Source: an uncultured Bryobacteraceae bacterium (GTDB lineage Bacteria; Acidobacteriota; Terriglobia; Bryobacterales; Bryobacteraceae). Taken from it: a stretch of 64,000 nt of DNA. The position numbers and the translations under genes were made by a program. Shown here piece by piece: positions 49,399-64,000 of this stretch. The stretch is taken from the NCBI GenBank assembly GCA_938003835.1, contig CALKXJ010000019.1, positions 1-64,000 on the forward strand. Reading direction: 5' to 3'. The notes under the pieces were generated by a model. That model saw nothing but the letters and a program-made list of their open reading frames with translations, was not told the DNA's origin and searched no databases. How positions within the stretch are numbered: position 1 is the first letter of the stretch; each line of letters starts with the position of its first letter.

Positions 49399-50355
49399 TT
49401 GGTTTTCGAAGACAATTCCTTGAGCATCGGGCGTACGCCCTTGGTGCGGCTGAATCGGATCACAGGCGGCGCCCCGGTGACCATTCTTGCCAAGATCGAG
49501 GGACGCAACCCGGCCTATTCGGTCAAGTGCCGGATCGGCGCCGCGATGGTTTGGGACGCGGAAAAGCGGGGCCTGCTCGGTCCCGGCAAGGAGATCATCG
49601 AGCCCACCAGCGGCAACACCGGCATCGCGCTGGCTTTCGTGGCCGCAGCACGGGGCTACCCGATCACGCTCACCATGCCGGAGACGATGTCGATCGAGCG
49701 GCGCAAGGTGCTGGCGGCCTTTGGCGCCAGGCTGGTGCTGACCGAGGGGGCCAAGGGCATGCAGGGTGCCGTGGCGGAGGCCGAGCGGATCGCCGCCTCT
49801 GATCCCGAGCGTTACGTCCTGCTACAGCAATTCAAGAACCCGGCGAACCCGGAGATCCACTTCCGGACAACAGGGCCTGAAATCTGGGAGGATACCGGCG
49901 GCAAGATCGACGTGCTGGTGGCCGGCATCGGCACCGGCGGGACGATCACGGGCGTGTCGCGCTACATCAAGAACGTCAAGCAAAAGAAGATTCTCTCGGT
50001 GGGCGTCGAGCCGGCGGCCAGTCCGGTGATTACCCAGACGTTACGAGGCGAGGCGTTGCGGCCGGGGCCGCACAAAATCCAGGGGATCGGCGCGGGTTTC
50101 ATACCTGAGACGCTCGATTTAACCCTGGTCGACCGCGTCGAGACCGTCACCAACGAGGAGGCGATCGAAACGGCCCGCCGGCTGGCGCGGGAGGAGGGAA
50201 TCCTTTCCGGCATCTCCTGCGGGGCGGCCACCGCGGTCGCGCTGCGCCTGGCGCGGGAACCGGAGATGGAAGGCAAGACCCTGGTAGTGATCCTGCCCGA
50301 TTCGGGCGAGCGCTACTTGAGCACGGTGCTCTTCGAGGGAATCGGAAACGTTTGA
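49399..50355 (+). CDS. cysK: Cysteine synthase A (O-acetylserine sulfhydrylase)
   Basis: A 318-residue PLP enzyme making cysteine from O-acetylserine and sulfide. The Schiff-base Lys lies in [11 protein letters not shown] near residue 42, followed by [20 protein letters not shown] (substrate loop), and the phosphate loop GTGGTITG near 175. It is close to the E. coli CysK type. The start is a TTG at 49399 with GGGAGAG about seven bases upstream; no ATG exists before the conserved region. Downstream is a strong hairpin terminator. It pairs with the Rrf2 gene. Confidence 0.94.
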
Positions 50356-50383
50356 CAGGCGGCGCCGAAGGGGAACATAAAAA

Positions 50384-50427
50384 AAGACGGGCGCGTTTTT
50401 GGGTGGATGGGTGGGTGCGCCCGTCTT
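50384..50427. terminator. Bidirectional hairpin terminator after cysK
   Basis: An 11-bp perfect stem, AAGACGGGCGC paired with GCGCCCGTCTT, has a run of A on its left and a short T-rich run on its right, so it can end transcripts from both the forward cysK and the leftward sugar isomerase-like gene. The 22-base loop contains T5 and a G-rich tract GGGTGGATGGGTGGG on the + strand. The stop of the convergent gene is 80 bases away. Confidence 0.75.
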
Positions 50428-50506
50428 ATCGTAACGGGGATCTACCTAGGAAACGACGCCGCCACCCGAAAGGTTACAGGCGCTCAAAAAAATTTTCTCT
50501 TCTGGC

Positions 50507-51367
50507 TCAGGCCGCAGCCAGACCCCGGAGGTTCCAGCCGCAGATGACGCTCCCCAGGAACTTGTCGCCGCCCGGCCCGCCCCAGTGCGTCTCCAGGCTG
50601 AGGTAGCCGCGATACCCATCCTCGAGCAGCGCCCGAATCTGACCCTTCCAGTCCACGGCGCGTGTACCGAGCGGGCCCCAGACCGGCCGGTGGCCCTCCA
50701 TGTGGCAATCTTTGGCATGGACGTGGATGATGCGCTCCGGCGGCAGCTTGCGGTAGCCGTCCGGAAATGGGACCTCGCCGGAAACCATGGCGTTGCCGGG
50801 ATCCCAGACTACCTTGAGGTTGGGATGATCGAGTGCGGCGAGCAGCCGCGCCGTCTCCGCGCCGGTCGAGATGTTGCAGGCGTGCTCGTTCTCCAGGCCG
50901 ATGATCAGGCCGCGTGGGGCCGCCTTCTCGCACAGGGTGGTCAGCGCCTGGACGATGGCGTCAAAGCATTTCTCCGGCGCGACGGTTCGCCAGTAAGAGA
51001 AGACGCGCACGATGCGGGCCCCGCACTTTTCGGCAATCGCGAAGGCGCGTTCGGCCAGCCGCGGCTGGTCCTCGTAAGCGTGCTTTGAGGCGAAGCTGTC
51101 CTGCTGGAAGCGCTGATCGATCTCAGGAGCGCCAGGCAGGACGCACTTGAGCAAGGGCGAGGCGATCGAGACGATCTGCATACCCCGCTTTCGCACCTGT
51201 CTGATCACTTGGTCGAGCTCCTCATCCGGCACGTCCATGATGTTTCGCTCGCCGATCATTCGCAGCTCGACCCCGGTCATCCCGATCGCAGCCATCGCCT
51301 CCAGGGCGCGCTCGACGTCGGGGCAGAACTCATCGGTGATGGCGGCCAACGGCAGCTTGGGCGTCAT
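50507..51367 (-). CDS. Sugar phosphate isomerase/epimerase-like TIM barrel (AP endonuclease 2 family)
   Basis: A 286-residue xylose isomerase-like TIM barrel. Metal-ligand residues are visible in order: Glu in LIIGLENEHA, Asp in VWDPGNA, His in IIHVHAKDCH and Glu in YLSLETHWG. The opening LAAITDEFCPDVERALEAM is typical of the family. It could isomerise or epimerise keto-sugars or inositol derivatives. The ATG at 51367 is chosen because AGGAG lies seven bases before it; ATG 51385 has no site. No signal peptide. A 7-bp dyad (GAGCGCT/AGCGCTC, 51396-51415) sits upstream. Confidence 0.86.
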   Translation of the reverse strand: MTPKLPLAAITDEFCPDVERALEAMAAIGMTGVELRMIGERNIMDVPDEELDQVIRQVRKRGMQIVSIASPLLKCVLPGAPEIDQRFQQDSFASKHAYEDQPRLAERAFAIAEKCGARIVRVFSYWRTVAPEKCFDAIVQALTTLCEKAAPRGLIIGLENEHACNISTGAETARLLAALDHPNLKVVWDPGNAMVSGEVPFPDGYRKLPPERIIHVHAKDCHMEGHRPVWGPLGTRAVDWKGQIRALLEDGYRGYLSLETHWGGPGGDKFLGSVICGWNLRGLAAA

Positions 51368-51605
51368 CGTATACTCCTGCGTCATCTGGTGTTCGGAGCG
51401 CTTTGGCGAGCGCTCGACCCTTATGATCGCAGAAGTACCTTCCCTGTTGGCGCCGTCCGGTGAGTTCGCTCAGGAGACGACCGCTACCCGGCCGCCTTCC
51501 ATGCTCTCACGGCTCAACCGCGCGAGGCGGCCTGACCCTCCCCTACCGCTCAAGCACAAGTGCCATTTGCCCTTCGGGTCAGGACGAGCCGATATTGGGC
51601 GCGCC

Positions 51606-52289
51606 TCAAGGCTGCCAATAGTCGGGCACGGTGATCCGGACGTGGGGCGGATTGTTGTCTCCAGCCCCGTCCGGCGTCGGAGTTGGATACGTCTTGTGAT
51701 CGCCGAAGCAGACTCGGTCAAATCCTTTCAGGCTTGGATCGGGCGTACCCGGCAACGGACTTGGCCAAGACGGGATGGGCTGCGAGTAACCCATCTTATA
51801 GCTCATGGTGTAGCAGCCTGCCATGACATTACGAGTGAGGATCCCCCCACCCAAGGCGACGCCCGCCCACACTGCATCCGAGGTGTATCCGCCATTAAGA
51901 CTTACATTTACGCCGTACTTCGTATACCAGCGTACGCGCAAGGTGGGGATTCTGACGTAAAAAGTCTGCGTTTGATTAGGGACTAGTACGAAATGTGTTT
52001 CCTTTCCGTAGATTTTATTCACACAAGCGTCGGGATTGTTGCAACCTGCCCAGACGTAATCGACTCGGTGAAGTTGTGGACTCAACTGCAACACCGCGGT
52101 ACAGTTTCCATGGCTCTCCGTGTAGCATCTCTTCACCCCGTCCACATAAACCGTGATGTACTGAACGCGATGGGGACCGTATGCGGTCACAGGATCGTCG
52201 TTCGTCGTGAACAACACAGGAGTAGTGGTCTGGCCCCATACCGATGACGCCGCGGTGAACGCCACGATCAGCGAGAATGTGCGGTGCAT
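51606..52289 (-). CDS. Secreted protein of unknown function, AT-richer than neighbours
   Basis: A 227-residue protein with a signal peptide (MHRTFSLIVAFTAASSVWGQ). The mature part is beta-rich with several Cys that could form disulfides (VKRCYTESHGNC, VWAGCNNPDAC). It ends in a Pro-rich stretch. I do not recognise the family. The start has GGAGGGCGTT before the ATG, and a strong sigma-70-type promoter lies about 200 bases upstream. Base composition is visibly more AT-rich than the surrounding genes, and codon use looks relaxed, which suggests transfer. The 238 bases to its right neighbour's start (51368-51605) hold no gene. Confidence 0.72.
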   Translation of the reverse strand: MHRTFSLIVAFTAASSVWGQTTTPVLFTTNDDPVTAYGPHRVQYITVYVDGVKRCYTESHGNCTAVLQLSPQLHRVDYVWAGCNNPDACVNKIYGKETHFVLVPNQTQTFYVRIPTLRVRWYTKYGVNVSLNGGYTSDAVWAGVALGGGILTRNVMAGCYTMSYKMGYSQPIPSWPSPLPGTPDPSLKGFDRVCFGDHKTYPTPTPDGAGDNNPPHVRITVPDYWQP

Positions 52290-52703
52290 AACGCCCTCCG
52301 TTCTCACGGCTTCCGACGGCTCGCCCGAGCCTCGCCGCTTACAAGGTTGTCTCTACCTCGGCTCCCCATTCTGAGGGACGCCGACCCTGCGCTCCCGACC
52401 GTGGGGCTTCTCCTCCGGCCACATCCGATCTTCTCGGATCGGGCAGCCACTCAAAAGCCCTCGGTTTTGCGCCGATTCCTATACCGAGTTCCTTATACAT
52501 CAACTTCATGCCGGAGTCAATACATGCTCGTCAATTCGAATGGCGACCGCGCCGGCGATCACGAGCTCGCATCGATTCGATTTCTTCGTTGTTCCCGATC
52601 CGATGATTTCTGAGGTCTTGCGGTCGCGGCCGCGGCCATTCCTTGCCGGACGATTCCCCGCCTGGGCGCAACGGCCGCGGGCGTGCCTTTGAGATTTCGC
52701 CGG
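52290..52703. other. Non-coding leader region of the orphan secreted gene
   Basis: About 410 bases without a convincing gene on either strand. On the minus strand it carries the promoter at 52492-52520 and then a leader of roughly 195 bases to the ATG at 52289. That leader contains a TCCGA-TCTTC-TCGGA hairpin (about 52427-52441) and several direct GC-rich runs. The right part (52520-52700) shows nothing I can name. It separates the orphan from the large leftward operon that ends at 52704. Confidence 0.5.
52492..52520 (-). promoter_or_regulatory. Strong sigma-70-type promoter for the orphan secreted gene
   Basis: On the minus strand TTGACT (-35, 52515-52520) and TATAAG (-10, 52492-52497) are separated by exactly 17 bases. 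This is the best housekeeping-type promoter I found in the window. Transcription would start near 52485, leaving a leader of about 195 bases before the ATG at 52289. Confidence 0.65.
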
Positions 52704-54353
52704 TCAATCCAGCCGGACCGGCTGCTGAGCCCCCTCCTGAATTGCGAGGAACTGATTCACGGCGATTCCACGGAAACTCTGCCGCAGGCCGCTCGGCCAC
52801 TCGACGACGAGCTCATCAATCCGCGGATCTTTGCCGAGGCCGAAGGTCAGCTCGAGCTGGCTTTGCGAGCAGTAGCTGGAGCCGCTGTGCACCATGCGCC
52901 ACTGCGTGCCAGAGGCGCTTCGAACGCGCACGACGGCCCCGATCGCGCTGCGGTTCGACCTGACGCCCACCAGACGCACCGTCAGCCAGTGGTTGGCGTT
53001 GCCTCCGTCGTTGCGGAACAGGTGCGCCGGGCCGTCATTGGTGGTGACGAGCAGGTCCAGATCCCCATCGCGATCGTAGTCGCCGTAGGCGGCGCCCCGG
53101 GCCACCATCGGCCGCGCCAGATCCGAACCGAGTTCGCGGACGACATCCCGGAAGCGGCCGCGCCCCAAATTCCGGAACAGATGCGGCGGCTGGCGGTAGG
53201 TGACCTTGGGCTGCACGCTCTCGATCTCCTCCTCGATGTGCCCGTTGGCGACGAAGATGTCCAGCCAGCCATCCAGGTCGAAATCGAAGAAGAACGTCGC
53301 GAAGGCGAGCGTCAGCAGGCTGTCGCGCCCAACGTTCGAGCGGGGCGCTTCATCGACGAACAGCGAGTTGCCCTCGTTGCGATACAGGCCCAGCATCTGG
53401 TTGGAGAAGTTGCCGATCACCAGGTGTGGGCGGCCGGAGCGGTCGTAATCGGCCGCATCGACGCCCATGGCGCCGCGGGCGATGCCGTCTTCGCTGAAGG
53501 CCACGCCCGCGCCGACGCCCTCCTCGGTGAAAGTGCCGTTGCGGTTGTTCCGGTAAAGCTTGTTTGGCTCGGTGTCGTTGGCGACGAAGATGTCCACCCA
53601 GCCGTCGGAGTCGAAATCGAGGATGGCGACGCCCAGCGACTTGCTGGTGGGGTCGGCGATGCCGCTCTCGCGGCTGACATCCCGGAACCGGCCGCCGCCC
53701 AGGTTGCGATAGAGCTTCGAAGCCAGCCCGCGGTAGGACTCCGGCGTGCAGTACGATTTGCGGGCGCCATCGAGCGAACACCACAGGTCGGTGGCCGGAC
53801 TCCACTCGACGTAATTGGCCACGAACAGGTCGACCAGTCCGTCCCGGTCGTAATCGACAAACGCGGCGCTTGAGGCGAAGCCGGGATTGTCGATGCCGGC
53901 CTGGCGCGTGACGTCGCGGAACTTGCCGCCGCCTTCGTTGCGCATCAGGCGGTCTGGTCCCATGTTGGTCAGGTAGAGATCGACGCGACCGTCGTTGTCG
54001 AAATCGGCGGCGGCCACGCCCAGGCCGTATGCCTCGACATCGAGCCCGCTTCCCGCCGTGACGTCGGTGAACGTGCCGTCACGGTTATTTCGATATAGCG
54101 CCGGGAGCGAACGGCGGCCGCGCGGTCTCCAGTCCTTGCTGTTGACCAGGTAGACGTCCAGCCAGCCGTCGCCGTCGAAATCGAGAAAGGCGCAGCCGGA
54201 GCCCATCGTCTCGGGGAGCCATTTCTGGCCGGCCTTGCCGGCGTTATGGCGGAAGCGGATGCCCGCCTGCTGGGTCACGTCGCGAAAAACGACCTGGGCG
54301 GAGGCTGCCGGGGCGGTGAGCCAGAGGGCGAGCAGGGCGTAGCAGAGTCGCAC
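52704..54353 (-). CDS. Secreted FG-GAP/VCBS repeat protein with ASPIC/UnbV domain
   Basis: A 549-residue CRTAC1-like protein. A signal peptide (MRLCYALLALWLTAPAASAQ) precedes about six FG-GAP/VCBS repeats with calcium-binding DxDxDG loops such as FDGDGWLDVYL, FDNDGRVDLYL, YDRDGLVDLFV and FDSDGWVDIFV. These should form a seven-bladed propeller. The C-terminal 80 residues are an ASPIC/UnbV domain (SAIGAVVRVRSASGTQ, ELVVEWPSGLRQSF). Function of the family is unknown; it is thought to bind ligands extracellularly. The GTG start at 54353 lies four bases after the cytochrome stop. Last gene of the leftward operon. Confidence 0.9.
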   Translation of the reverse strand: MRLCYALLALWLTAPAASAQVVFRDVTQQAGIRFRHNAGKAGQKWLPETMGSGCAFLDFDGDGWLDVYLVNSKDWRPRGRRSLPALYRNNRDGTFTDVTAGSGLDVEAYGLGVAAADFDNDGRVDLYLTNMGPDRLMRNEGGGKFRDVTRQAGIDNPGFASSAAFVDYDRDGLVDLFVANYVEWSPATDLWCSLDGARKSYCTPESYRGLASKLYRNLGGGRFRDVSRESGIADPTSKSLGVAILDFDSDGWVDIFVANDTEPNKLYRNNRNGTFTEEGVGAGVAFSEDGIARGAMGVDAADYDRSGRPHLVIGNFSNQMLGLYRNEGNSLFVDEAPRSNVGRDSLLTLAFATFFFDFDLDGWLDIFVANGHIEEEIESVQPKVTYRQPPHLFRNLGRGRFRDVVRELGSDLARPMVARGAAYGDYDRDGDLDLLVTTNDGPAHLFRNDGGNANHWLTVRLVGVRSNRSAIGAVVRVRSASGTQWRMVHSGSSYCSQSQLELTFGLGKDPRIDELVVEWPSGLRQSFRGIAVNQFLAIQEGAQQPVRLD

Positions 54354-54357
54354 CGCT

Positions 54358-57210
54358 TCAGTCGACTCCCTCGAGAGTTGGCTGCACGGCGCGGCCGCGC
54401 GTCAGATGAGCGGGCGCTGGTGGTTCCGGGGAAAGGGGCACGCTGACGTGCTCGTGAATCGGTTGCCGCTCGTTGTTATCCTCGGGGCTGAGCATGCGGC
54501 GCCGGTGGGTGATGGTCTGCGCCGATTCGTCGGCTTTGAACCGGCGGAAGAGTTTCTCGGCGCGCGCGGCCTGCTCGCGGTCGCCGAGCCCGCGCCAGGC
54601 GAGCATGAGGGTGTAGTGAGCCTGCAAGTCCTCGGAGTCGACCTCGAGGACGCGCCGGAGGGCTTCAATCGCCGCCCGATAGTCGCGCTTGAGAAACAAA
54701 ATCCGTCCGATCTGGTTCAGCACCACGCGGTCGCGCGGGTATTGCGCCCGCACCCGCTCGAGCGAACGAAGCGCCCCCTCGTAGTCGCCCTCGGCCTTCT
54801 GGATCAGCGCGTAGAAGTAATGGTTCCGACCGAGATCCGGCCTGAGCGCCAGCGCCCGCTCAACGTACGGTCGAGCCGCCCCGGTCTCGCCCTCCTGGAT
54901 GAGCGCCCGCGCGACGTTCAGCCAGCCGTCGGCGTATGTGGGATCGGCCTCGATGACGCGCTCGAAGGCGTAGACCGCGCCTTTCAAGTCTCCCTGGAGG
55001 AGCAGGCCGATGCCCCAGTCGTTCCACCGCTCCCGATCCTCCTTGCGCACCACGGGCCGCCAGACCGTCTCGGTCCCGGCGTCGCCGATGGCGAGACGCG
55101 CCTCGGCCTCGGCCAGTGTGATGATCGGCAGCACCGGGATCTCACCCTTGACCTTGCCGGAGACGTTGGCCGGAATGTTCTCCCTATGGAAGCTGTACGG
55201 CCGGCTGTCGTGATGGAGGTTGGCCAGCTCACCGTTCGAATCGCCCTCCGCCCGGCCCGCATAGGCGTACTGCGTGTAGTAGTGCGAGAACTTGCGGTGC
55301 TGGAGCCGGGCGCGGACCCTCACCGGGCCCTGGACATCGCGGGGCAGCTCCATCCGATAATGCGCCACGTCGGCGGCGCCCGGCGGAATCAGCCGCACAT
55401 AGAGCACGCTGCGCGCCTGCCAGGCGTTCCGCTTGTCGATGGGATTCCCTGCTCCGTCCAGCATGAAGGAGCGATAGAAATGCGCGCCCGGCTCGACGGG
55501 CCCCCTGCCGCCGTCCTCGACTTTGCCACTCCAGAAGATGGTTCGCCCGGTGGCGTCCCAGGCTTGCACCTCAAGCCATACGTCGAAGGCGTCCACCGTT
55601 CCGCCGGGGAAAAAGTGGCCGATGTTGCGCGTCCGCACGACCACGTCCAGACGAAGCGTGCTGCCGGGCCGGAAGACCGCGCCGGCCTGATCGATCGGCG
55701 CCGCCACCCGGCCCACCTCGCGAATGAAGACCGGGCGGGCCTGCTCGGCCTCCTCGCCCACGGCAAAGGTGGACATCAACTGCTGGCCTTCGCCCGCGCG
55801 CCGCATCATCGGCACGCCGCCGTCTTCGGCCGGCGAAGCCGCGAAGATATCCACGGTGATGAAGCCCGACTTCAAAAACTCCTCGGTGACGCGCATCTGC
55901 TCGGCGTCGCGGTTGACGAGCGCCAGAGCGGTGTTGGCGCCGGGGAAGCGATGGGAGCGCACCATGCCGTTGCGATGCCCGGGATCCCGCGATGGGACCA
56001 GCGGCATGTGGCAGTCGACGCAGGTCTGCGCCTGCGGCGGATAATAAAACGAGCGCGCGCCTTGGCCCGAGACGCCGCTGGCCTGCCAGTTGTCGTAATC
56101 ATTGAATCCGCGCAACCAGCGGTAGTTGTTCACCGGCACGTCGAGGTGCACCTTGTGGCAGGCCGAGCAGAATTCGGCCGAATTGCGCATGAAAGGCTTC
56201 AGAAACGTGCGCCGGTGCGGCTCTGGCTCCGCGAAGGTCAGCTTCCGGTCCAGATAGCGGAGCACGGGGTTGGAGCTGGTCGCCAAGCGGTGCAGGCTCG
56301 GGTATTCGATCGTAAAGCCCCCGTTGCCCACGGAGCCGTTTACGTGGACAATCGAGTGGCAGGAGACGCACGCCAGTCCGGCATGCGCTTCCGGCGTATC
56401 GAGCTGCTCTTTGACAGGCACATCGAAGCGCCCGCTAAAGAGCATGGCGTGATCGTGGCAGCCGGCGCACCAGCGGCTCGGCTTGGTGCCGGCGATCTCC
56501 TGCATGTGCTCGATCGACTTCCGATAGAACTGGTTGTTGAACGAGGCGAAGTGATGGGCCGAGCTGCGCCACTGCTCGTAGATATCCTTGTGGCACTCGC
56601 CGCACTTCTCCGACTCGAGAAAGAAATCCGACGGAATGAGGCCGCCGTGGGCGGTGCGTGCCGCCGAGGGCCAGAAGGGCGAATCCGGCCCGGCGCCCTC
56701 TTCTTCCATCGTGAGCGGCGTCACGGCGGGGTTCCGGATCGTGGCGAAGCGGCTGTGAAAAGGATCGAGCAGCCTTCCAGCCACCGCAGCCAGCAGCGCT
56801 ACGGCCGCCACATAGCGCAGCTGGCGCGCGAACCCGGCCCATTGTGGCGCGGCCGCGGCACGGCGTTCGACCCCGAGAATTAGCGCCGCCAGCCCCGCCA
56901 CGGCCAGCGCGATATGCGCCCACAGCACCCAACGGTACTGCCGCAGCGCGCCGAAGTGGAACAGGAACAGGCCGAGCGCCGCCGAGGGAAGCAGGAAGGC
57001 GGCCGGAATGGCGAGCAGGCGGCGCAGGACGGACCGGCGCAGCAGGTGCCAGACGAGGATTTGAGCGAGCACCACGCCCACGACGACGTGCAGCAGCACG
57101 TTCGCCATGTAGAAGACGGTCGGCGAGGCGAGCGCGGCCAGATACCCGCTATTGACGATGAGCAGCAAAAGCAGTGCTGCCGCCCAGTGATTCAGCCCCC
57201 ATCTTTTCAT
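54358..57210 (-). CDS. Membrane-anchored five-heme cytochrome c with C-terminal TPRs
   Basis: A 950-residue protein. Residues 10-150 have four or five membrane helices. The periplasmic part has five CxxCH heme-binding motifs: CGECH, CAGCH, CVSCH, CSACH and CVDCH, the first in a cytochrome c554-like context (DIYEQWRSSAHHFA). A beta-rich segment (about 480-690) follows, then TPRs from about 760 (YADGWLNVARALIQEGETG, GRNHYFYALIQKAEGDYEGAL). It would accept or pass electrons at the membrane and bind partners through the TPRs. Its ATG lies inside the preceding gene, a 62-base overlap. Confidence 0.88.
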   Translation of the reverse strand: MKRWGLNHWAAALLLLLIVNSGYLAALASPTVFYMANVLLHVVVGVVLAQILVWHLLRRSVLRRLLAIPAAFLLPSAALGLFLFHFGALRQYRWVLWAHIALAVAGLAALILGVERRAAAAPQWAGFARQLRYVAAVALLAAVAGRLLDPFHSRFATIRNPAVTPLTMEEEGAGPDSPFWPSAARTAHGGLIPSDFFLESEKCGECHKDIYEQWRSSAHHFASFNNQFYRKSIEHMQEIAGTKPSRWCAGCHDHAMLFSGRFDVPVKEQLDTPEAHAGLACVSCHSIVHVNGSVGNGGFTIEYPSLHRLATSSNPVLRYLDRKLTFAEPEPHRRTFLKPFMRNSAEFCSACHKVHLDVPVNNYRWLRGFNDYDNWQASGVSGQGARSFYYPPQAQTCVDCHMPLVPSRDPGHRNGMVRSHRFPGANTALALVNRDAEQMRVTEEFLKSGFITVDIFAASPAEDGGVPMMRRAGEGQQLMSTFAVGEEAEQARPVFIREVGRVAAPIDQAGAVFRPGSTLRLDVVVRTRNIGHFFPGGTVDAFDVWLEVQAWDATGRTIFWSGKVEDGGRGPVEPGAHFYRSFMLDGAGNPIDKRNAWQARSVLYVRLIPPGAADVAHYRMELPRDVQGPVRVRARLQHRKFSHYYTQYAYAGRAEGDSNGELANLHHDSRPYSFHRENIPANVSGKVKGEIPVLPIITLAEAEARLAIGDAGTETVWRPVVRKEDRERWNDWGIGLLLQGDLKGAVYAFERVIEADPTYADGWLNVARALIQEGETGAARPYVERALALRPDLGRNHYFYALIQKAEGDYEGALRSLERVRAQYPRDRVVLNQIGRILFLKRDYRAAIEALRRVLEVDSEDLQAHYTLMLAWRGLGDREQAARAEKLFRRFKADESAQTITHRRRMLSPEDNNERQPIHEHVSVPLSPEPPAPAHLTRGRAVQPTLEGVD

Positions 57211-60200
57211 TTCGGTTGCCCAGAACCGGCGGCCGCAACAGTCTGAGCGCGGGCCGCGTGTTGTACTGCTCGAGATACTGGCGGTGCAGCTCGGTATCCG
57301 GATAGCGCTCCCCGGCCGGATAAGGATATGCGCTCATCGCGTGGAAGGGCAGTGGCTCGACCGTTTGCGAAAAGGCCGTATTCGCGTCGCTGTCTTTGGC
57401 CCAGCCATCCACCAGCAGCAGGAAGTCCCGCCGCCAGCCCTCCGGGACGGCGGGGAAGGCTGCGGCTTGGAAGACAAGCCGCACCTCATCGCCGGAGCCC
57501 ATGATGACGAACCGGTCGTCGATGTCCCGCAGCAGTTCGGTGACGTCACCGTAGCGGGTATACAATCCCGGCGTCGGGTTCCAGTTCGACGCCGGCCTTG
57601 GGTCCGGATACAGAAACCATTCCGGCTGCTTGCGCTCCGGGTGGATCCTGACCCGCGAGAAGCCGCGGAAGCGCAGATCGGCGCTTGCCGCCGCCGCCTC
57701 GCTCAAGCGAACCTCCGGCTCCAGATTTCCCGCAGCGAGGAAAGCTTCATCCCAGTAAACGCACACGTTGGTGACGATCCGCACGGCTCGCGCCTCACCG
57801 AGGAACTTGCCCCGCAGATCGACCACGATGGTCTTGGGCTTGCCCGCCGGCACGCCCATATCCTCGATGACCGTGCGCCATTCTCCTCGCGCGTCCTTCA
57901 CCTGGAGGTAGGGCATCACGAGGCCGCCGTCACGCTCCTGAGCCCGGGCCAGAAAGGTGCTGCCATTGGCCCAATCCACCCAGCCGTGGAGCACCAGGAC
58001 GGCGTCATTGTCCGGCGCCGCAGAGCCGAAGTCGAGCTCGAGCGCATGCATCTCGGCCGCGCCTGCGCGCGTGCGGCGAAACCGGTCCGGATAGCGGCGG
58101 TCCCGGGCGGCCACGAGCGAGAGAACATCTCGCCCCTGGTGATCGAACGCGGCGCGCGGCGGGATGCGGTGCCTGACTCCGAAGAGGCGAAACTCAGGGA
58201 ACGGCGGACCCTGGAACTTCTCGTTCGTAAAGATCTCGACGTCACGCGGATGATCCACAGCGATCAATTTCACCTGGTCGAGGTAAGAGACCTCGGCAAG
58301 TTCCTCGGTGATGCGAATCTCGTAGAAGCCGTTGCGCGCCGCGAGCATCTCGCCCGGAATCCAGACATACTCGTCATGGTCCGTGGGGAAGTACTTGCCG
58401 TCGCCCGCACTGGCGCCGAGCGGCGCCACGCCGAGCACGTCGGCGATGAATTCGAACTCGCGGCCGTTCCAGGCCCAGACCATGGGGCAGGAGCCCGTGA
58501 GCCGCTCCTCTTCCTTGTAGGTGTGCGTCCGGTTGACAGGCTGGCGCGTTTCGGTCTGAATGAGGCCGTTCGGCCAGGTGATGCGCACCAGATCCACGGT
58601 CTCGTCGGCGCGTACGCCGAACAGCAGCGGGAGGCCTTCGTAGATCTTTTTCTGATAGCGGGTAGCCGAGCGGACTTCGACCTCGGCGCCCGGCGCCAAT
58701 CGCGGCGCCTTGACGCCGTTCAAAGCCACGCGCAGCCAGTTGTTTCTGGTTTGCGTGACATTGCGCAGCAGGCGCAGTTCGCCTTCCGGGGTGATGGCGG
58801 CCAGGTCGGCGCGCCCGTCGCCATCGAAATCGGCCACCGCCCAAGCCGTGCCGGAGACCAGACCTGCCGGGCGCGAGGGCTCAGAGAATCTGCCCTGCCC
58901 GAGATTGCGGAACACGCTCCCCGCCGCGATCACCTCGAGCCGGCCGCGATTCTCGAGATCTGCCAGAGCCGGCGGCCCGGCGGCCCGCAGGCGCACCATC
59001 GAGTGGGCTTTCTCGGTCGCCAGGCGGAGCCCGACCTCGTCGCCGGCCTGAAAGGCCAGATCGACCCAACCGTTATTGTCCGCGTCGGCGGCAATGAGGC
59101 CGCGCGCGCCCGCGGGAATCTCGGCGAGCGGTTGGGCCTCATAGACGCCGCCCAACCGGTCACGGTAAAGCACCGCCGGGCGATCGGCGTAGCTCACTAC
59201 CAGGTCGAGCGCCTTGGTGTCCGGGACGACTCGAAGGACCACCGCGTCGAGAGCGCGGCCGCTCGTAAACGGGAAATCCCGCGTGCGATCGGCGAAACCG
59301 GCCGTGCCCTGGTTTCTGAGCAGCACCGGGCGCTCGCCGAGCAGGATCAGGTCGAGGTCGTTCTCATGGTCATAGTCGAGCCAGACGGCCTTCTCATACC
59401 GGGATGGCGGGGCCGGAAGATCCACCTTTTCGAAACCGCCTTTGGTGTTCCGCAGAAGCACCGCCCCGGCGGTCCCGGCAAGGCATAGGTCGGCCAGGCC
59501 GTCGTTGTCGAAATCGCCTGCTGCGGCGCTCAGAACGCCTTCGATGCCGGCAAACGCCGGAATTCTGGCCGCCTTTTCACCTGCGAGATAGAGCGCGACG
59601 CCGGCGGTCGACCAGGCCAGCAGGTCCGGCCGGCCGTCTCCATCGGCGTCGAAGGCAAGCAAGCCGGCCGCGCGAGGATCGAGCTTGCCGGCGACGGCAC
59701 GAGCCTCGAAGCGCAACTCCGCCGCGGGTTCGTCACGGTCCAGGCCGGGATCGATCGGATCGTACAGCTCGGAATAGAAACTCCACTCGACGTCCTCGGG
59801 CACGACGGCGCTCTTCTGCGCCTCTTTGATCCGGCGGAACTGCTCAAGGTGGTGAGCGGCCTTCTCCTTGTCGCCGGACTGGCGGTACGCGTTGAAAAGC
59901 TGGAAGTGCGGAGCGGCCATGTTGGGGTCGAGCCGGGCGGCGAGCTCAAATTTGCGGAGAGCCTCCCCGCTCCGGCCCACCATCCGATACAGCACGCCCA
60001 GGTTGTAATGCGCCACCGCCTCGTCGGGAACCAGCTTGACCATCTGCTCGAGCTGATGGATGGCGCGCTCGAATTCCCCGGCGCGTTTGTACTGAATGCC
60101 GAGGTTGAACCAGGTGTGCGGCAGCGATGGGTCCTGCTTCTGCACCTTTTCGAGCTCGGCAATCCCCTCCTGGAGTTGTCCGGCACCGAGCAGCGCGAGG

Positions 60201-60427
60201 GCGTAATTGAGCCGGTCGCGAGCCGACTCGGGCGCCAGCTCGAGCGCCTTGCGCAGCTCCTCGACCGCTTCTTTCTTGGTGGTCGGATTTTCGTAGAAAG
60301 CCTTGCCCAGGTTGCGGTGCCGCGCCAGCCGCTCCTCGCGCACCTGCGCAGTATCCGCTGCCGTCAGCAGCAGAAGTCCCAGCCCCGCCGCACCCAAGAG
60401 AGCCAGCCAGCCGCCTGAAGAGGTCAC
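57149..60427 (-). CDS. Large secreted TPR, FG-GAP and ASPIC/UnbV protein
   Basis: A 1092-residue protein with an N-terminal signal or anchor helix (WLALLGAAGLGLLLLTAA), five to six TPRs at about residues 35-210 (ALALLGAGQLQEGIAELEK, FNLGIQYKRAGEFERAIHQ), and FG-GAP-like strands at about 250-550 (FDADGDGRPDLLAW, FDNDGLADLCLA, FDGDGRADLAAI). An ASPIC/UnbV-like segment near 570-640 (VRITWPNGLIQTE) leads to CPMVWAWNGREFEFIADVLG and a further 400 residues of unknown beta-rich sequence. GTG start at 60427, GAGGGAAG upstream. Probably a cell-surface scaffold next to the cytochrome. Confidence 0.87.
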   Translation of the reverse strand: MTSSGGWLALLGAAGLGLLLLTAADTAQVREERLARHRNLGKAFYENPTTKKEAVEELRKALELAPESARDRLNYALALLGAGQLQEGIAELEKVQKQDPSLPHTWFNLGIQYKRAGEFERAIHQLEQMVKLVPDEAVAHYNLGVLYRMVGRSGEALRKFELAARLDPNMAAPHFQLFNAYRQSGDKEKAAHHLEQFRRIKEAQKSAVVPEDVEWSFYSELYDPIDPGLDRDEPAAELRFEARAVAGKLDPRAAGLLAFDADGDGRPDLLAWSTAGVALYLAGEKAARIPAFAGIEGVLSAAAGDFDNDGLADLCLAGTAGAVLLRNTKGGFEKVDLPAPPSRYEKAVWLDYDHENDLDLILLGERPVLLRNQGTAGFADRTRDFPFTSGRALDAVVLRVVPDTKALDLVVSYADRPAVLYRDRLGGVYEAQPLAEIPAGARGLIAADADNNGWVDLAFQAGDEVGLRLATEKAHSMVRLRAAGPPALADLENRGRLEVIAAGSVFRNLGQGRFSEPSRPAGLVSGTAWAVADFDGDGRADLAAITPEGELRLLRNVTQTRNNWLRVALNGVKAPRLAPGAEVEVRSATRYQKKIYEGLPLLFGVRADETVDLVRITWPNGLIQTETRQPVNRTHTYKEEERLTGSCPMVWAWNGREFEFIADVLGVAPLGASAGDGKYFPTDHDEYVWIPGEMLAARNGFYEIRITEELAEVSYLDQVKLIAVDHPRDVEIFTNEKFQGPPFPEFRLFGVRHRIPPRAAFDHQGRDVLSLVAARDRRYPDRFRRTRAGAAEMHALELDFGSAAPDNDAVLVLHGWVDWANGSTFLARAQERDGGLVMPYLQVKDARGEWRTVIEDMGVPAGKPKTIVVDLRGKFLGEARAVRIVTNVCVYWDEAFLAAGNLEPEVRLSEAAAASADLRFRGFSRVRIHPERKQPEWFLYPDPRPASNWNPTPGLYTRYGDVTELLRDIDDRFVIMGSGDEVRLVFQAAAFPAVPEGWRRDFLLLVDGWAKDSDANTAFSQTVEPLPFHAMSAYPYPAGERYPDTELHRQYLEQYNTRPALRLLRPPVLGNRNEKMGAESLGGSTAFAAHRQ

Positions 60428-60476
60428 AGTTAGCTTCCCTCATTATACCGGCGGCCTGCGGCAGCAACGCCGAGAA

Positions 60477-62636
60477 TTAGCGCGCCGGCGCCACGCTCAC
60501 CTGGCTAGAAGAGCCCATCGCGTTACTCAGGGAAACCGAAATGGACTCAATGGCGTTGACCAGGCCCGTGACATTGCGCGTCTGGCCGGAAAGCTGAAGC
60601 GGGATCGTCACGCTGAACTGGCTTCCGAAGGCCACCGACTGGCTGCTGGCGTACCAAGCGTCGAAGGCGGTTTCGGCGTTGATGGTCAGGCTGGTCGTAG
60701 CCAGCGTCTCTCCCGCGACGGGAGCGAAAGCGAGGTTGATCTGCCGAACCGAACGCGCGGTGGAAAAACCGGTGACGATCACGCTCAGGGCCGAAGCACT
60801 GGTCTGCAACAAGGTGACGTTCAGCACCTGCGGCGCGCCGCGCTCCACCTGGATGAGATGGGTTCGGGGATTGGCAGGCGTCAGGTTGAAGCCGCCCTCG
60901 GCGGCAAACGACGGCGTGATGGTGATAACGCCGGCCACCGTGCCCGTCTGCAAGCGGATCTCGGTGGCGCCATTGGGGAAGACAGCCCGGATCGAGTTCT
61001 CCGGGATTGTGAATGCGACCGTGCGGCCACCGGTGGCAAACTGCACCGCCGGGTCGGCCGCAAAGACATCGGAAGCGAAACTCAACGCCAGCGTGCCGCT
61101 GATGGCAATCGGATAAGGAGCATCGAGCGTCAGCCCGATCGCCGGCTGCGCCCGCGGCGGCTGGACCCCGGCGGGACCCGTGAACCGGTACGACGGCAAA
61201 GCCGGCGGCGGCGTGCCGGCGCCCGAGAGCGTAACCGAGACGTCGTCGATCCGGAGCGTGTCGGCGAGGGAACCGGTTGTCTTCGGTGCAAAGCGGATCG
61301 TGAAACCCAGCGCGCCACCGGGCGGTATGGAGGCCGGGAAGGCGGGCAAATCCGCCAGCGTGAAGGCGTCGCCTTTGGCGAGGCTAATCGCTTTGATCGT
61401 GGCCTCGCGGGTGCCAACGTTGGTGATCTCGAAGTTCACCGTAACGGCTGCACCAACGGCGGCGGGTGTCAACACCAGGGTGCCGCCGGCGCCCACGCGG
61501 ACGATCGCACCGGCCACGGTGGCCCGGTACTCGAGCAGGGCACCCGCGCCCGAGCCGGTCAGAGGAAACTCATCGGCGCCGATCTTCAGGCGCCCGGGCA
61601 TGCTTCCCACCTTCGACGGCGAGAAGGTCAGGGTGAATTCCAGCGCAGCGCCCGGCGCCAGCCTGGCCGGCAGGAAGGGCAGGTTCGCCAGACGGTACCC
61701 GTCGCCCGAGACCGCGATCTGAGAGATCGTACCTTCAGCATTGCCGGTGTTGGTGACTCGCAGGATCACCGACACTGTCTCACCCACCGGCGGCTCGCCC
61801 AGAGAGATGGTTTGACTGGGGACCGCGGCCTGAGCTTGACCGTCCCGCAAGACCTCGTAGGCGAACGCCGGGGTGATGCCGAGACCCTCCAGGATGAACT
61901 GAGCCCTGCCCGGCGGCAGCTCGAGGGAGAGCGCGCCGGAGGCGGTCACTGCCTGTTTGGGCACAAAGGCGACGTTGAAGCGGACTTCACGGCCGGCATC
62001 GACCGGAGCGGGTAAAAGCGGCGCTCCGCGGAGCTCAAAAGCCTCTCCGGTGACGCTGATACCGTTGATCCGGCCGGCGCCGGAACCGCGATTGACGACG
62101 CTGAAGGCGCCGAGGGAGCTGCCTTCGAGCGGCGTGTCGGGAAAAGCCAGCCTGGCGCCCGGCGTCACCTGGATCGCATTGCCGCCGGGCGGTGTGTAGA
62201 CGAAGGCATAGTCCGGCGCGGTCCCGCTGAGGTTCACGCGGAAAGTCGCCGTCCGGGCTCGCTCGACGTAGGTGAAACTGAGTTGCGCGCTCCGGGCGGC
62301 GCCGCTCGCAGGCAGATACTCGATCGGGACAGCGACACTGCCGCCGGAGGCGAGCAACAAGGGCAGCTCGGGCGACCAGACCGAGAACTCCAAAGAGCCG
62401 GTGCGCGTGATCTGGGTGATCTGCGCCTGATCCGTCCCGCGGTAAGTGATGGTGAGCGTGGCCGTGGCGGGGAGTCCGACGCCCTCGGAGGCCATGAATA
62501 CGGTCGCGCCGTCGGCGATCTCCAGCGCACTTCCAGCCTGCTCGACGCGAATGGTGAAGGGAAGCGCCGTCTGGGGCTGCGCCGGGGGCGCCGCGAGCGC
62601 TGCCAGCAAGGTGAGAACGAGAACGATTCGCGGCAT
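60477..62636 (-). CDS. Secreted choice-of-anchor D/Hydin-like Ig repeat protein
   Basis: A 719-residue protein with a signal peptide (MPRIVLVLTLLAALAAPPAQPQ). At least three ASPM/SPD-2/Hydin-type Ig repeats of about 100 residues follow (ITNVGTREATIKAISLAKGD, VTNTGNAEGTISQIAVSGDG, VNRGSGAGRINGISVTGEAF), with a diverged copy before them. The C-terminal 230 residues are another beta-rich domain (SVTIPLQLSGQTRNVTGLVN, then a conserved SVSLSNAMGSSS end). No catalytic motif is visible. It is most likely structural or adhesive. The next gene upstream ends three bases before its start; 49 bases separate it from the TPR/FG-GAP gene. Confidence 0.85.
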   Translation of the reverse strand: MPRIVLVLTLLAALAAPPAQPQTALPFTIRVEQAGSALEIADGATVFMASEGVGLPATATLTITYRGTDQAQITQITRTGSLEFSVWSPELPLLLASGGSVAVPIEYLPASGAARSAQLSFTYVERARTATFRVNLSGTAPDYAFVYTPPGGNAIQVTPGARLAFPDTPLEGSSLGAFSVVNRGSGAGRINGISVTGEAFELRGAPLLPAPVDAGREVRFNVAFVPKQAVTASGALSLELPPGRAQFILEGLGITPAFAYEVLRDGQAQAAVPSQTISLGEPPVGETVSVILRVTNTGNAEGTISQIAVSGDGYRLANLPFLPARLAPGAALEFTLTFSPSKVGSMPGRLKIGADEFPLTGSGAGALLEYRATVAGAIVRVGAGGTLVLTPAAVGAAVTVNFEITNVGTREATIKAISLAKGDAFTLADLPAFPASIPPGGALGFTIRFAPKTTGSLADTLRIDDVSVTLSGAGTPPPALPSYRFTGPAGVQPPRAQPAIGLTLDAPYPIAISGTLALSFASDVFAADPAVQFATGGRTVAFTIPENSIRAVFPNGATEIRLQTGTVAGVITITPSFAAEGGFNLTPANPRTHLIQVERGAPQVLNVTLLQTSASALSVIVTGFSTARSVRQINLAFAPVAGETLATTSLTINAETAFDAWYASSQSVAFGSQFSVTIPLQLSGQTRNVTGLVNAIESISVSLSNAMGSSSQVSVAPAR

Positions 62637-62639
62637 GGT

Positions 62640-63611
62640 CTACTCCTGGGCTTCGGCGAGACCCTCGGCGGGGGCCGGAATGAAGAAAACCGCGGTCTCC
62701 TCACCGGCGGTCGTGAGCACTTCGAGCACGTCGCCGGCACGGCGGCGCTCGGTGAGCAGCCAGCTCATCCCGTCATCCAACGGCTGAAGCCGCGTCGGCT
62801 CAAAATCGAGCGGCACCCAGCGAAGCAATGCGCCGGAGGCCAGATCGAAAAACGCTACCTTCCGTCCGGTGGAGCTCGCCACCAGCAGTAGCTTGCCGTC
62901 GGCCGAAACGGCCATGGCCGCCGGTTCAGTCACTCCGGCCGAAGCGTTGGCAAACAAGAGAACCTCGACCGAGTCAGGCCAATTGCGAACCTCGAGGATC
63001 TCCTGGCGCGCGCGGTCGGCCACCAGGAGCCGGCCCGAGCGGGTCACGACGAGCGGGCCCGGTTGCGCCAGGCGGGCGAGGAGCCTCGCCGGGCCGCCGG
63101 AGTGGAGCCAGTACAGCCCCACGCCGTCGACTCCGGCCAGCACGGCGCCGCCGGTGACGGCCAGGCTGAGAATCGGCCCTCCCAGCGCCTTGGTGGAAAA
63201 GCTCGCTGAGGTGCGCCCGGCTGGATCGACCAGCATCACGCGGCCGGCGGCATGAACCGCCGCGGCACTCGAATCGAGCGCCCAGGCCACCAGTTCGGGC
63301 TTCCCGGCGAGAGCCGGCAAGGCCTGCCATTCGAGCGTGCCGTTCCGAAGCCCCTTGAGCCACCAGACCGCGCCCCCAACCAGCACGAGGGCCTGATCGC
63401 CGTCGGGCGCCGGCCAGACAGCGTCCAGGTTCTGAGCCATCGGCTCGCCCAGATAGGACGCACCGGGCGCCCCTACGACCGGGCGGAGGCAGCGGCTCGG
63501 CTCGTCATAGACGACGCCGGAGACAAGGCCGCCGATTCCGCCCGCCCCGGCGCCTGGGGCGAGGCTCGCGGCGGCAAGCGCGACAAGTATTGCCGGCGAG
63601 ATGCTTCGCAT
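62640..63611 (-). CDS. Secreted beta-propeller-like protein
   Basis: A 323-residue protein with a signal peptide (MRSISPAILVALAAASLAPGAGA). The mature part consists of about six repeated four-strand units with a WD/NHL/YVTN look, for example ALVLVGGAVWWLKGL, GRLLVADRARQEILEVRNWP and GKLLLVASSTGRKVAFFDLASG. No enzymatic motif is seen. The ATG at 63611 has GGGAG before it; an ATG at 63635, overlapping the upstream stop, is an alternative. It stands three bases ahead of the choice-of-anchor gene. Confidence 0.72.
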   Translation of the reverse strand: MRSISPAILVALAAASLAPGAGAGGIGGLVSGVVYDEPSRCLRPVVGAPGASYLGEPMAQNLDAVWPAPDGDQALVLVGGAVWWLKGLRNGTLEWQALPALAGKPELVAWALDSSAAAVHAAGRVMLVDPAGRTSASFSTKALGGPILSLAVTGGAVLAGVDGVGLYWLHSGGPARLLARLAQPGPLVVTRSGRLLVADRARQEILEVRNWPDSVEVLLFANASAGVTEPAAMAVSADGKLLLVASSTGRKVAFFDLASGALLRWVPLDFEPTRLQPLDDGMSWLLTERRRAGDVLEVLTTAGEETAVFFIPAPAEGLAEAQE

Positions 63612-63631
63612 GGACCGACTCCCTAAGCTTC

Positions 63632-64000
63632 TCATCTGGGTCCCGCCACGGTCACCGGGCCGGCCGTGATGGTGATCGGAGTGGTGACGGCCACCCCGTC
63701 GGAACCGTTGCCGGAGGCCGCCGCGGCGATGGCGGCGCCCGCCCCCGCACCGACGGCGGCGAGAATCCACCATCTCCGGTGGCTGCGGCCGCTCGCGCCG
63801 GCGCCGCGCACGTTGGCTTGCGCAATGACGGCCGAGGCCTCCTGCGTGCCGGCCTTCGCGGTTACGCGGATGTTGAACCGCCCCTCGAAATCGTTGGCCA
63901 TATACCCGCTGGCAGCAGCGATCCCTTCGACATTGGTGCGAACCGTCTGCGTCTTGACCCAGCCGTGAAACGAGCCGCCCGGCCCTTCCATCGGGAGGCG
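63632..64000 (-). CDS. Ig-like domain protein, C-terminal part (5' truncated)
   Basis: The reading frame is open to the right window edge, giving at least 123 codons. The visible part has a bacterial Ig-like strand pattern (VRTNVEGIAAASGYMANDFE, FNIRVTAKAGTQEASAVIAQ) followed by a basic stop-transfer-like segment (RSHRRWWILAAVGAGAGAAIAAAA) and a short Thr/Val-rich tail. The N-terminus lies beyond the window, so total length and function are unknown. It is the first visible gene of the six-gene leftward operon, 20 bases before the beta-propeller gene. Confidence 0.75.
   Translation of the reverse strand, partial: RLPMEGPGGSFHGWVKTQTVRTNVEGIAAASGYMANDFEGRFNIRVTAKAGTQEASAVIAQANVRGAGASGRSHRRWWILAAVGAGAGAAIAAAASGNGSDGVAVTTPITITAGPVTVAGPR

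Follow-up and report, generated by a model that had tools for sequence, protein, structure and literature searches.

Overview of the locus

We analysed a 64,000-nucleotide window (positions 1 to 64,000 of contig CALKXJ010000019.1, assembly GCA_938003835.1) from an uncultured Bryobacteraceae bacterium of the phylum Acidobacteriota, and focused on a run of genes at its right-hand end in which a pentaheme cytochrome lies between two proteins of the CRTAC1 type, i.e. proteins with an FG-GAP propeller and an ASPIC/UnbV domain. The contig of the window, C19, is one of 38 in a genome of 5.0 Mb. Six minus-strand open reading frames were confirmed and named A to F from left to right, so that transcription runs from F to A; all coordinates below are window positions on the minus strand unless stated otherwise. 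A and B are separated by 4 bp, B and C overlap by 62 bp, C and D are separated by 49 bp, D and E by 3 bp, and E and F overlap by 4 bp, which confirms the six leftward, closely spaced or overlapping genes (gaps of 49 bases or less) of a first-pass annotation made from the sequence alone. The domain matches also agree with its list of a five-heme cytochrome, tetratricopeptide repeats (TPRs), FG-GAP/ASPIC propellers and immunoglobulin-like (Ig-like) proteins. A signal or membrane anchor on every complete protein was likewise recognised, by eye except for the membrane helices of B, which were taken from a structure model. Two parts had been overlooked, namely an N-terminal five-helix domain of B with two conserved histidines and a C-terminal domain of about 420 residues in C.

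Domain organization and heme ligands of cytochrome B

Gene B (54358..57210) encodes a membrane-anchored pentaheme c554-type cytochrome of 950 residues with a C-terminal TPR region. Its structure model (pLDDT 83.3, from 37 sequences) consists of five long N-terminal helices, a heme domain, a beta domain and TPR helices. The protein contains exactly five CxxCH motifs: CGECH (56590..56604), CAGCH (56455..56469), CVSCH (56356..56370), CSACH (56155..56169) and CVDCH (56008..56022). The heme domain passes the curated cut-off of Cytochrome_C554 (PF13435; 37.5 versus 20.8 bits), and TPR families of Pfam match the region of residues ~722-915 (54466..55047), in agreement with the model. Between these lies a beta-strand domain (residues ~500-715, 55066..55713), delimited from the model and the alignment, which carries the invariant His532; it has no Pfam match, and profile searches with it returned nothing usable. 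Structure matches of the whole model were TPR proteins including MamA and O-GlcNAc transferase, and these were disregarded, the heme and membrane parts being barely covered.

Residue conservation was examined in an alignment of 117 B homologues. The heme motifs are kept, with a gap at motif 1 in a single homologue; among 37 homologues, 10 lack the CX2CH form of motif 1, and the four of them displayed (L060, L062, L080 and L085) have CX4CH instead. Five histidines outside the motifs are also conserved: H219, H420 and H532 are present in all 117 sequences, H332 in 116 and H355 in 113, and all five occur together in 113. Five candidate distal histidines for five hemes would allow bis-histidine ligation, by counting rather than by geometry.

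On a different reading of the same domain, B would be an enzyme of the periplasm, a reductase or oxidase whose catalytic heme is five-coordinate, and the CRTAC1 protein would be a structural or substrate-channel subunit. Since H355 is missing in 4 of the 117 homologues, one heme may be five-coordinate and catalytic. In addition, Y363, R367, Y372 and Y389, which lie between hemes 4 and 5 and partly in a low-confidence stretch of the model, are invariant (117/117) and leave an active site possible. The nearest solved structures by sequence are cytochrome c552 (5ze8, E 9e-7) and then c554 (E 0.004), and CRTAC1 genes adjoin homologues of HZS-alpha and HZS-beta-gamma in layouts described in excerpts of PMC12758564, one such layout being present in our own genome. 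Against this, the five histidines found together in 113 of 117 homologues are sufficient for full bis-histidine coordination, and no substrate-linked gene is among the common neighbours of B, and we consider a catalytic role rather unlikely.

Membrane domain of B and its relatives

Relatives of B were collected by searching 297 Acidobacteriota genomes with residues 1-715 (E 1e-10), and homologues were found in 93 of them. Matches above 400 bits were termed type I and occur in 36 genomes, our own included. The tree of the heme domain (58 rows) contains four supported groups: clade I (28 rows, 97/99), clade Ib (8 rows, 97/85), clade II (12 rows, 100/100) and clade III (9 rows, 100/100). The clade II and III loci come from 20 loci picked from the shorter B matches and are a selection of such matches.

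In B, five transmembrane helices are predicted in the model at residues 6-156 (56743..57195), a region with no Pfam match over the cut-off. When rows with gaps are left out, the best-conserved columns of this domain are H99 (113/113), H41 (112/113, the exception being L112) and G45 (112/114), followed by G87 at 92%. An alignment confined to the membrane domain, with 36 sequences at a mean identity of 27%, left H41, G45 and H99 as its sole invariant columns. His41 (codon 57088..57090) in helix 2 and His99 (codon 56914..56916) in helix 4 are candidate ligands of a b-type heme, and in the model both lie about 10 residues in from the same helix end. Loop charges weakly place this end on the periplasmic side, where it must be if the hemes that follow helix 5 are periplasmic.

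Relatives in other clades contain additional histidines. All eight clade Ib sequences share four invariant histidines in the membrane part, two per helix, with spacings of 18 and 14. The membrane domain of clade III, the most distant group, is likewise N-terminal, and its histidines number four in 9/9 sequences, again spaced by 18 and 14 in each. Profiles of the membrane domains of I/Ib and III aligned with an hhalign probability of 97.6 and a pairwise E of 2.9e-12, and those of Ib alone and III with 97.1 and 5.5e-11, each value referring to one pair and not to a database. The former alignment sets H41 and H99 of B on the first histidine of each clade III pair. Clade III sequences match DUF4405 in 7 of 9 cases (best E 1e-4) and b561 families in 3 of 9 (Ni_hydr_CYTB in two, E 1e-4 and 9e-4; Cytochrom_B561 in two, E 3e-4 and 0.27), all below the cut-offs; the cytochrome b of a Rieske locus next to one clade III gene likewise matches DUF4405. 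For type I, sub-threshold b561 matches (E 0.2-6 in 3 of 6 fragments) were not counted as evidence of membership.

Diheme cytochromes b carry two histidines on each of two helices. Since the four histidines of clades Ib and III are spaced as in this pattern, we infer that these proteins hold two b hemes, and that type I B would hold a single one on the periplasmic side.

CRTAC1-type proteins A and C

Gene A (52704..54353) encodes a plain CRTAC1-type protein of 549 residues with an N-terminal signal-like stretch (by eye), in which FG-GAP (PF13517) and UnbV_ASPIC (PF07593; 52746..52946, 79.9 bits) both exceed their cut-offs. The product of gene C (57149..60427) is larger (1092 residues) and contains a TPR region at residues ~38-204 (59816..60316; Pfam and model), FG-GAP matches, and a partial UnbV match (25.6 bits against a cut-off of 23.4). 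Its residues 235-641 (58505..59725), comprising the propeller and UnbV part, superpose on murine CRTAC1 (9etn_A) with a Z-score of 35.5 over 401 aligned residues and a root-mean-square deviation of 2.7, and Foldseek gave an E of 9.6e-16 for the same structure; a search with the whole model covered chiefly residues 232-563. Aldos-2-ulose dehydratase (Z 26) and LGI1 (Z 27) came after CRTAC1, and we attributed their similarity to a propeller fold in common. The remaining C-terminal domain (residues ~642-1060, 57248..58504; about 420 residues) is conserved and could be aligned in 16 homologues, and the two proteins tried gave no Pfam match for it even at E 5. We know of no established function of ASPIC/UnbV (CRTAC1) proteins in bacteria.

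C-B-A is a conserved module and F-E-D is a separate cassette

Two sets of loci were compared. The first consists of up to 20 kb around 27 type I B loci (L046-L072), representing 27 of the 35 other type I genomes, and the second of the best 80 of at least 546 named relatives of B. The record titles of the latter name Acidobacteriota except for two that are labelled otherwise and are possibly mis-binned. In 23 of the 27 loci of the first set, B is immediately followed on its 3' side by A, in the same orientation. The exceptions are L051, L053, L062 and L064, whose genomes (G291, G275, G092 and G137, respectively) contain an A orthologue elsewhere (55-59%), about 15 kb away in the case of G291. 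For the second set, adjacency was counted at loci where 2.5 kb or more was available on the 3' side: A directly follows B in 60 of 64 under a rule allowing matches to overlap by up to 150 bases (misses, L094, L118, L120 and L132) and in 56 of 64 under a strict rule, and it was also seen in 12 of the 16 further loci with less room. Gene C lies directly 5' of B in 25 of 59 loci with room and 3' in 15 of 49, and no further neighbour family was common around these 80 loci. One first-set locus (L047:6104-19998) carries the C-B-A cluster together with three more CRTAC1-type genes upstream on the same strand.

Of the 297 genomes, 34 combine A (at least 600 bits) with type I B, 12 possess only A, 2 possess only B and 249 lack both, a count that ignores relatedness; A is thus present in 46 genomes, comprising 34 of the 36 with type I B and 12 of the 261 without. 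B is nearly always accompanied by A, and A does not require B.

The other three genes behave differently. Gene D (60477..62636) encodes an Ig-like choice-of-anchor-D protein with HYDIN-like and choice-of-anchor-D domain matches. Gene E (62640..63635; likely start 63635, 331 residues) encodes a propeller-like secreted protein with one weak NCBIfam match (E 0.005), and gene F (63632..64000 in the window) a short protein that appears Ig-like by eye and whose portion inside the window has no family match. The window edge truncates F, which is complete in the contig (63632-64264, 210 residues). D matches only 3 of the 297 genomes at E 1e-30, our own counted. F, E and D occur in the same order on contig C20 of our own genome (L178) and in a relative (G187, L171), and A, B and C have no match in either stretch; in G289, matches of F and D are also close together. 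Conversely, D, E and F were found in none of the 80 fetched B-locus stretches and, with matches above 60 bits, in none of the 27 first-set loci. F-E-D is thus a separate family-level cassette, because it occurs without A, B and C, because D is found in 3 of 297 genomes, and because none of the three surrounds other B loci. Judged from gene content and order, F-E-D is a local add-on that happens to sit upstream, and C-B-A is the conserved module.

These results modify the earlier view of the locus. The first-pass annotation had proposed one surface or periplasmic complex of all six proteins, whose gene order should recur in other Acidobacteriota. The order does recur across the phylum for C-B-A, and fails to do so for the D-E-F half. 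A single six-protein surface complex had the tight one-strand spacing in its favour; since F-E-D stands apart from C-B-A, with no D, E or F at the other B loci, we rejected it as very improbable. A surface location also finds no support for B, whose helical membrane domain fits the inner membrane, and the only MtrB/PioB porin match in the genome (21.4 bits) is under the 23-bit cut-off. By contrast, the suggested association between ASPIC/UnbV proteins and a multiheme cytochrome is borne out and extends over the phylum, and the redox role attached to it finds support as a hypothesis.

We also inspected the surroundings of the six genes. Extending the window to the right, as had been proposed, completes F and then, after a gap of 153 bp on the same strand, reaches genes for malate and isocitrate dehydrogenases (by eye), with a divergent citrate synthase gene (L009:4419-8478). 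Among the 80 B-locus stretches, malate dehydrogenase and citrate synthase were found in none and isocitrate dehydrogenase matches in two. Motif scans, which are weak evidence, detected no sigma-70-like promoter in 50300-64000 and seven terminator-like sites against a shuffle mean of 9.8, i.e. no excess, and in the upstream stretch (L009, 3500-7200) a single promoter-like site before isocitrate dehydrogenase. On the 3' side of A lies a gene for a xylose-isomerase-like (sugar-isomerase-like) TIM barrel (window 50507-51385); its relatives are near B in 6 of 80 loci, too few for it to be kept as a member of the module.

Cytochrome, TPR and CRTAC1 across the clades

A tree of the CRTAC1 proteins (53 rows) largely mirrors that of the cytochromes. 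The partners of clades I (99/95), II (100/100) and III (100/100) each form one group, those of Ib form one with the unassigned L085 (91/85), the groups of I and Ib join (100/99), and the partners of III stand apart, matching the cytochrome tree. Clade II partners cluster with other paralogues of the genome analysed here, which suggests a separate recruitment. In clade Ib, CRTAC1 directly follows the cytochrome in 5 of 8 loci (L077, L078, L081, L082 and L083), is 5-7 kb away in L079 and L080, and is not found within the L084 stretch. In clade III, it is directly downstream in all 8 loci with room, L207 ending at a contig edge.

The position of the TPR differs between clades. TPRs were called with Pfam in five fetched clade II and III loci and in L074, and with a crude motif pattern in the remainder. 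Clade III cytochromes have no TPR, and a TPR tail is present on the CRTAC1 protein instead in 6 of 8 loci (Pfam in L074, L202, L204 and L208; motif pattern in L203 and L206; none in L205 and L209). In the clade II pairs L195 and L199 (Pfam), the cytochrome bears the TPR and its CRTAC1 partner has none, as in the window. Since the TPR is carried by either partner, the three elements (cytochrome, TPR and CRTAC1) seem to act as a single functional unit.

The same observation bears on the idea that A, C and the TPRs help to assemble or anchor the multiheme cytochrome and stand outside electron transfer. Propeller and TPR folds are binding scaffolds, A and C homologues contain no CxxCH, and several of them start with lipoprotein-like signals (by eye), all of which would suit such factors. 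However, fusion of the TPR to one partner or the other according to clade points to a lasting complex over transient assembly, and we regard a role limited to assembly or anchoring as improbable.

Related loci in the same genome

The genome contains 12 UnbV genes, A and C included; one doubtful match on contig C14 yielded no gene. There are five Cytochrome_C554 genes (six matches), and three of them directly touch an UnbV gene, in the window and on contigs C8 and C6. The chance of three contacts among five is about 2e-6, for a random order of an assumed 4,300 genes and ignoring operons. Leaving out the window pair, which itself drew our attention, gives a fairer figure of about 2e-4 for two of four under the same assumptions. 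The contig C8 cluster (L073:7678-13885) is hydrazine-synthase-like and comprises genes for HZS_alpha, for CRTAC1 and for a third protein that combines ten CxxCH motifs with two c554 domains, a propeller and a MauG-like end. On contig C6 (L074:7488-18303), a pentaheme cytochrome with a four-histidine membrane domain is followed by a CRTAC1-TPR gene and then, on the same strand, by genes for an Rrf2-like regulator (by eye), an iron-sulfur (FeS)/NAD oxidoreductase, a Rieske protein, a cytochrome b and a protein with seven CxxCH motifs. By gene content, this clade III pair adjoins what looks like a quinol-oxidising complex. Elsewhere in the genome, TPR genes touch UnbV genes at L182, L186, L187 and L075 and are divergent from one at L183, with neither arrangement at L181 and L184. 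At L185:9925-13134 (contig C26), a planctomycete-type cytochrome protein with PSCyt1, PSCyt2 and PSD1 is encoded divergently from an UnbV gene.

Proposed role of the C-B-A module

We suggest that C-B-A is an Acidobacteriota redox module in which an inner-membrane, quinol-linked b/c cytochrome works with CRTAC1 and TPR parts that dock its periplasmic hemes, and we give this reading a probability of roughly 0.48. The N-terminal helices of B would hold one b heme between His41 and His99 near the periplasmic face (two such hemes in the clade Ib and III relatives), and this heme would exchange electrons with the quinone pool, either taking them from it or giving them to it. Electrons would pass from the b heme to five bis-histidine c hemes in the periplasm, for which H219, H332, H355, H420 and H532 are the candidate distal ligands. 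The TPR tail together with A and C would be the non-redox part of the B complex, and may either connect the cytochrome with its redox partner in the periplasm or keep the complex assembled.

Several observations weigh against this proposal, in addition to the occasional loss of H355. First, a simple hydropathy scan found four stretches in B and not five, the fifth helix being less hydrophobic. Second, type I proteins match no cytochrome b family over the cut-off (best, Ni_hydr_CYTB with 11.8 versus 30.1 bits), the clade Ib membrane domain likewise has no cytochrome b family match, and the membrane profiles of type I, Ib and III found no match among solved structures. Third, clade II has a single membrane-like stretch in 12/12 sequences and no conserved histidine before the hemes, so that a quinone linkage would not be family-wide, and CRTAC1 is directly upstream in only 6 of its 12 loci. 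Finally, C is far from universal around B, and 12 of the 46 genomes with A have no type I B.

A wider proposal, which we put forward only tentatively, is that these proteins represent a new type of acidobacterial respiratory complex, built on a single-chain pentaheme b/c cytochrome that oxidises quinol, contains one b heme (type I) or two (Ib and III), and has CRTAC1 as its regular non-heme subunit. In that case, CRTAC1/ASPIC-UnbV proteins might as a rule serve periplasmic multiheme redox enzymes as docking subunits, and the present family would have recruited them on at least two occasions and the hydrazine-synthase relatives on one. CRTAC1 proteins, of which animals possess a homologue, are encoded many times over in our genome and in related ones, and their phylum-wide partnership with a multiheme cytochrome, with the TPR on either partner, provides a concrete hypothesis of a possible redox role. 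If it is correct, a quinone-linked type of cytochrome would be added to a common soil phylum.

Comparison with known systems

In plan, B resembles CbcL of Geobacter, in which membrane helices with histidines fitting b-type heme and a periplasmic multiheme c domain are joined in one chain. Excerpts of PMC9129911 and PMC6295460 describe CbcL as having six helices, two b hemes and nine c hemes, with the c domain first, and the former gives bis-histidine ligation for its c hemes. B instead has five N-terminal helices with a single histidine pair (clades Ib and III have two) and five c hemes, and it further possesses a beta domain, a TPR region and a CRTAC1 partner. With five helices, one pair and the sub-threshold Ni_hydr_CYTB score given above, it lacks the HydC/FdnI-like diheme b domain of about six helices, and by these features it is outside the CbcL family. 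The CbcL-like architecture (PMC9129911, in part) would also suit extracellular electron transfer, with electrons leaving the cell through the C-B-A module, and a partial text of PMC8407742 reports multiple membrane-bound multiheme cytochrome genes in Paludibaculum fermentans, an Fe(III)-reducing member of the Bryobacterales. With no MtrB/PioB porin over the cut-off in the genome, and neither a porin nor an outer-membrane cytochrome family among the common neighbours of B, we think such a route highly doubtful.

ImcH and the NapC-NirT quinol dehydrogenases share with B an N-terminal membrane part and a periplasmic multiheme part. Excerpts of PMC6295460 give three helices and seven CX2CH motifs for ImcH and count 19 ImcH homologues in Acidobacteria. 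Unlike these proteins, B has no NapC/NirT match in Pfam at E 0.01. The heme domain of B is shared with the cytochrome c554 family, to which B adds the membrane, beta and TPR parts. Cytochrome c554 itself is a small, soluble tetraheme protein. Murine CRTAC1 (9etn) resembles residues 235-641 of C in fold, and A shares its FG-GAP and UnbV domains; to our knowledge, no cytochrome partner of the animal protein has been found.

A further parallel is provided by the hydrazine-synthase-like clades I-III of PMC12758564, where, in the excerpts of that study, a CRTAC1 gene adjoins heme protein genes, clade I has two c554 domains, and P. fermentans is listed. The contig C8 cluster of our genome resembles this clade I layout. 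The window does not, since its six proteins have no HZS_alpha match and its heme protein is laid out differently. In the open-access literature searched, only PMC12758564 combined "CRTAC1" with "multiheme cytochrome", and the excerpts of PMC3174227 name ASPIC/UnbV solely in lists of paralogues. The C-B-A module is real and widely conserved and, as far as the open-access literature goes, apparently undescribed. It is an addition to the membrane multiheme cytochromes, and its link to CRTAC1 proteins is new.

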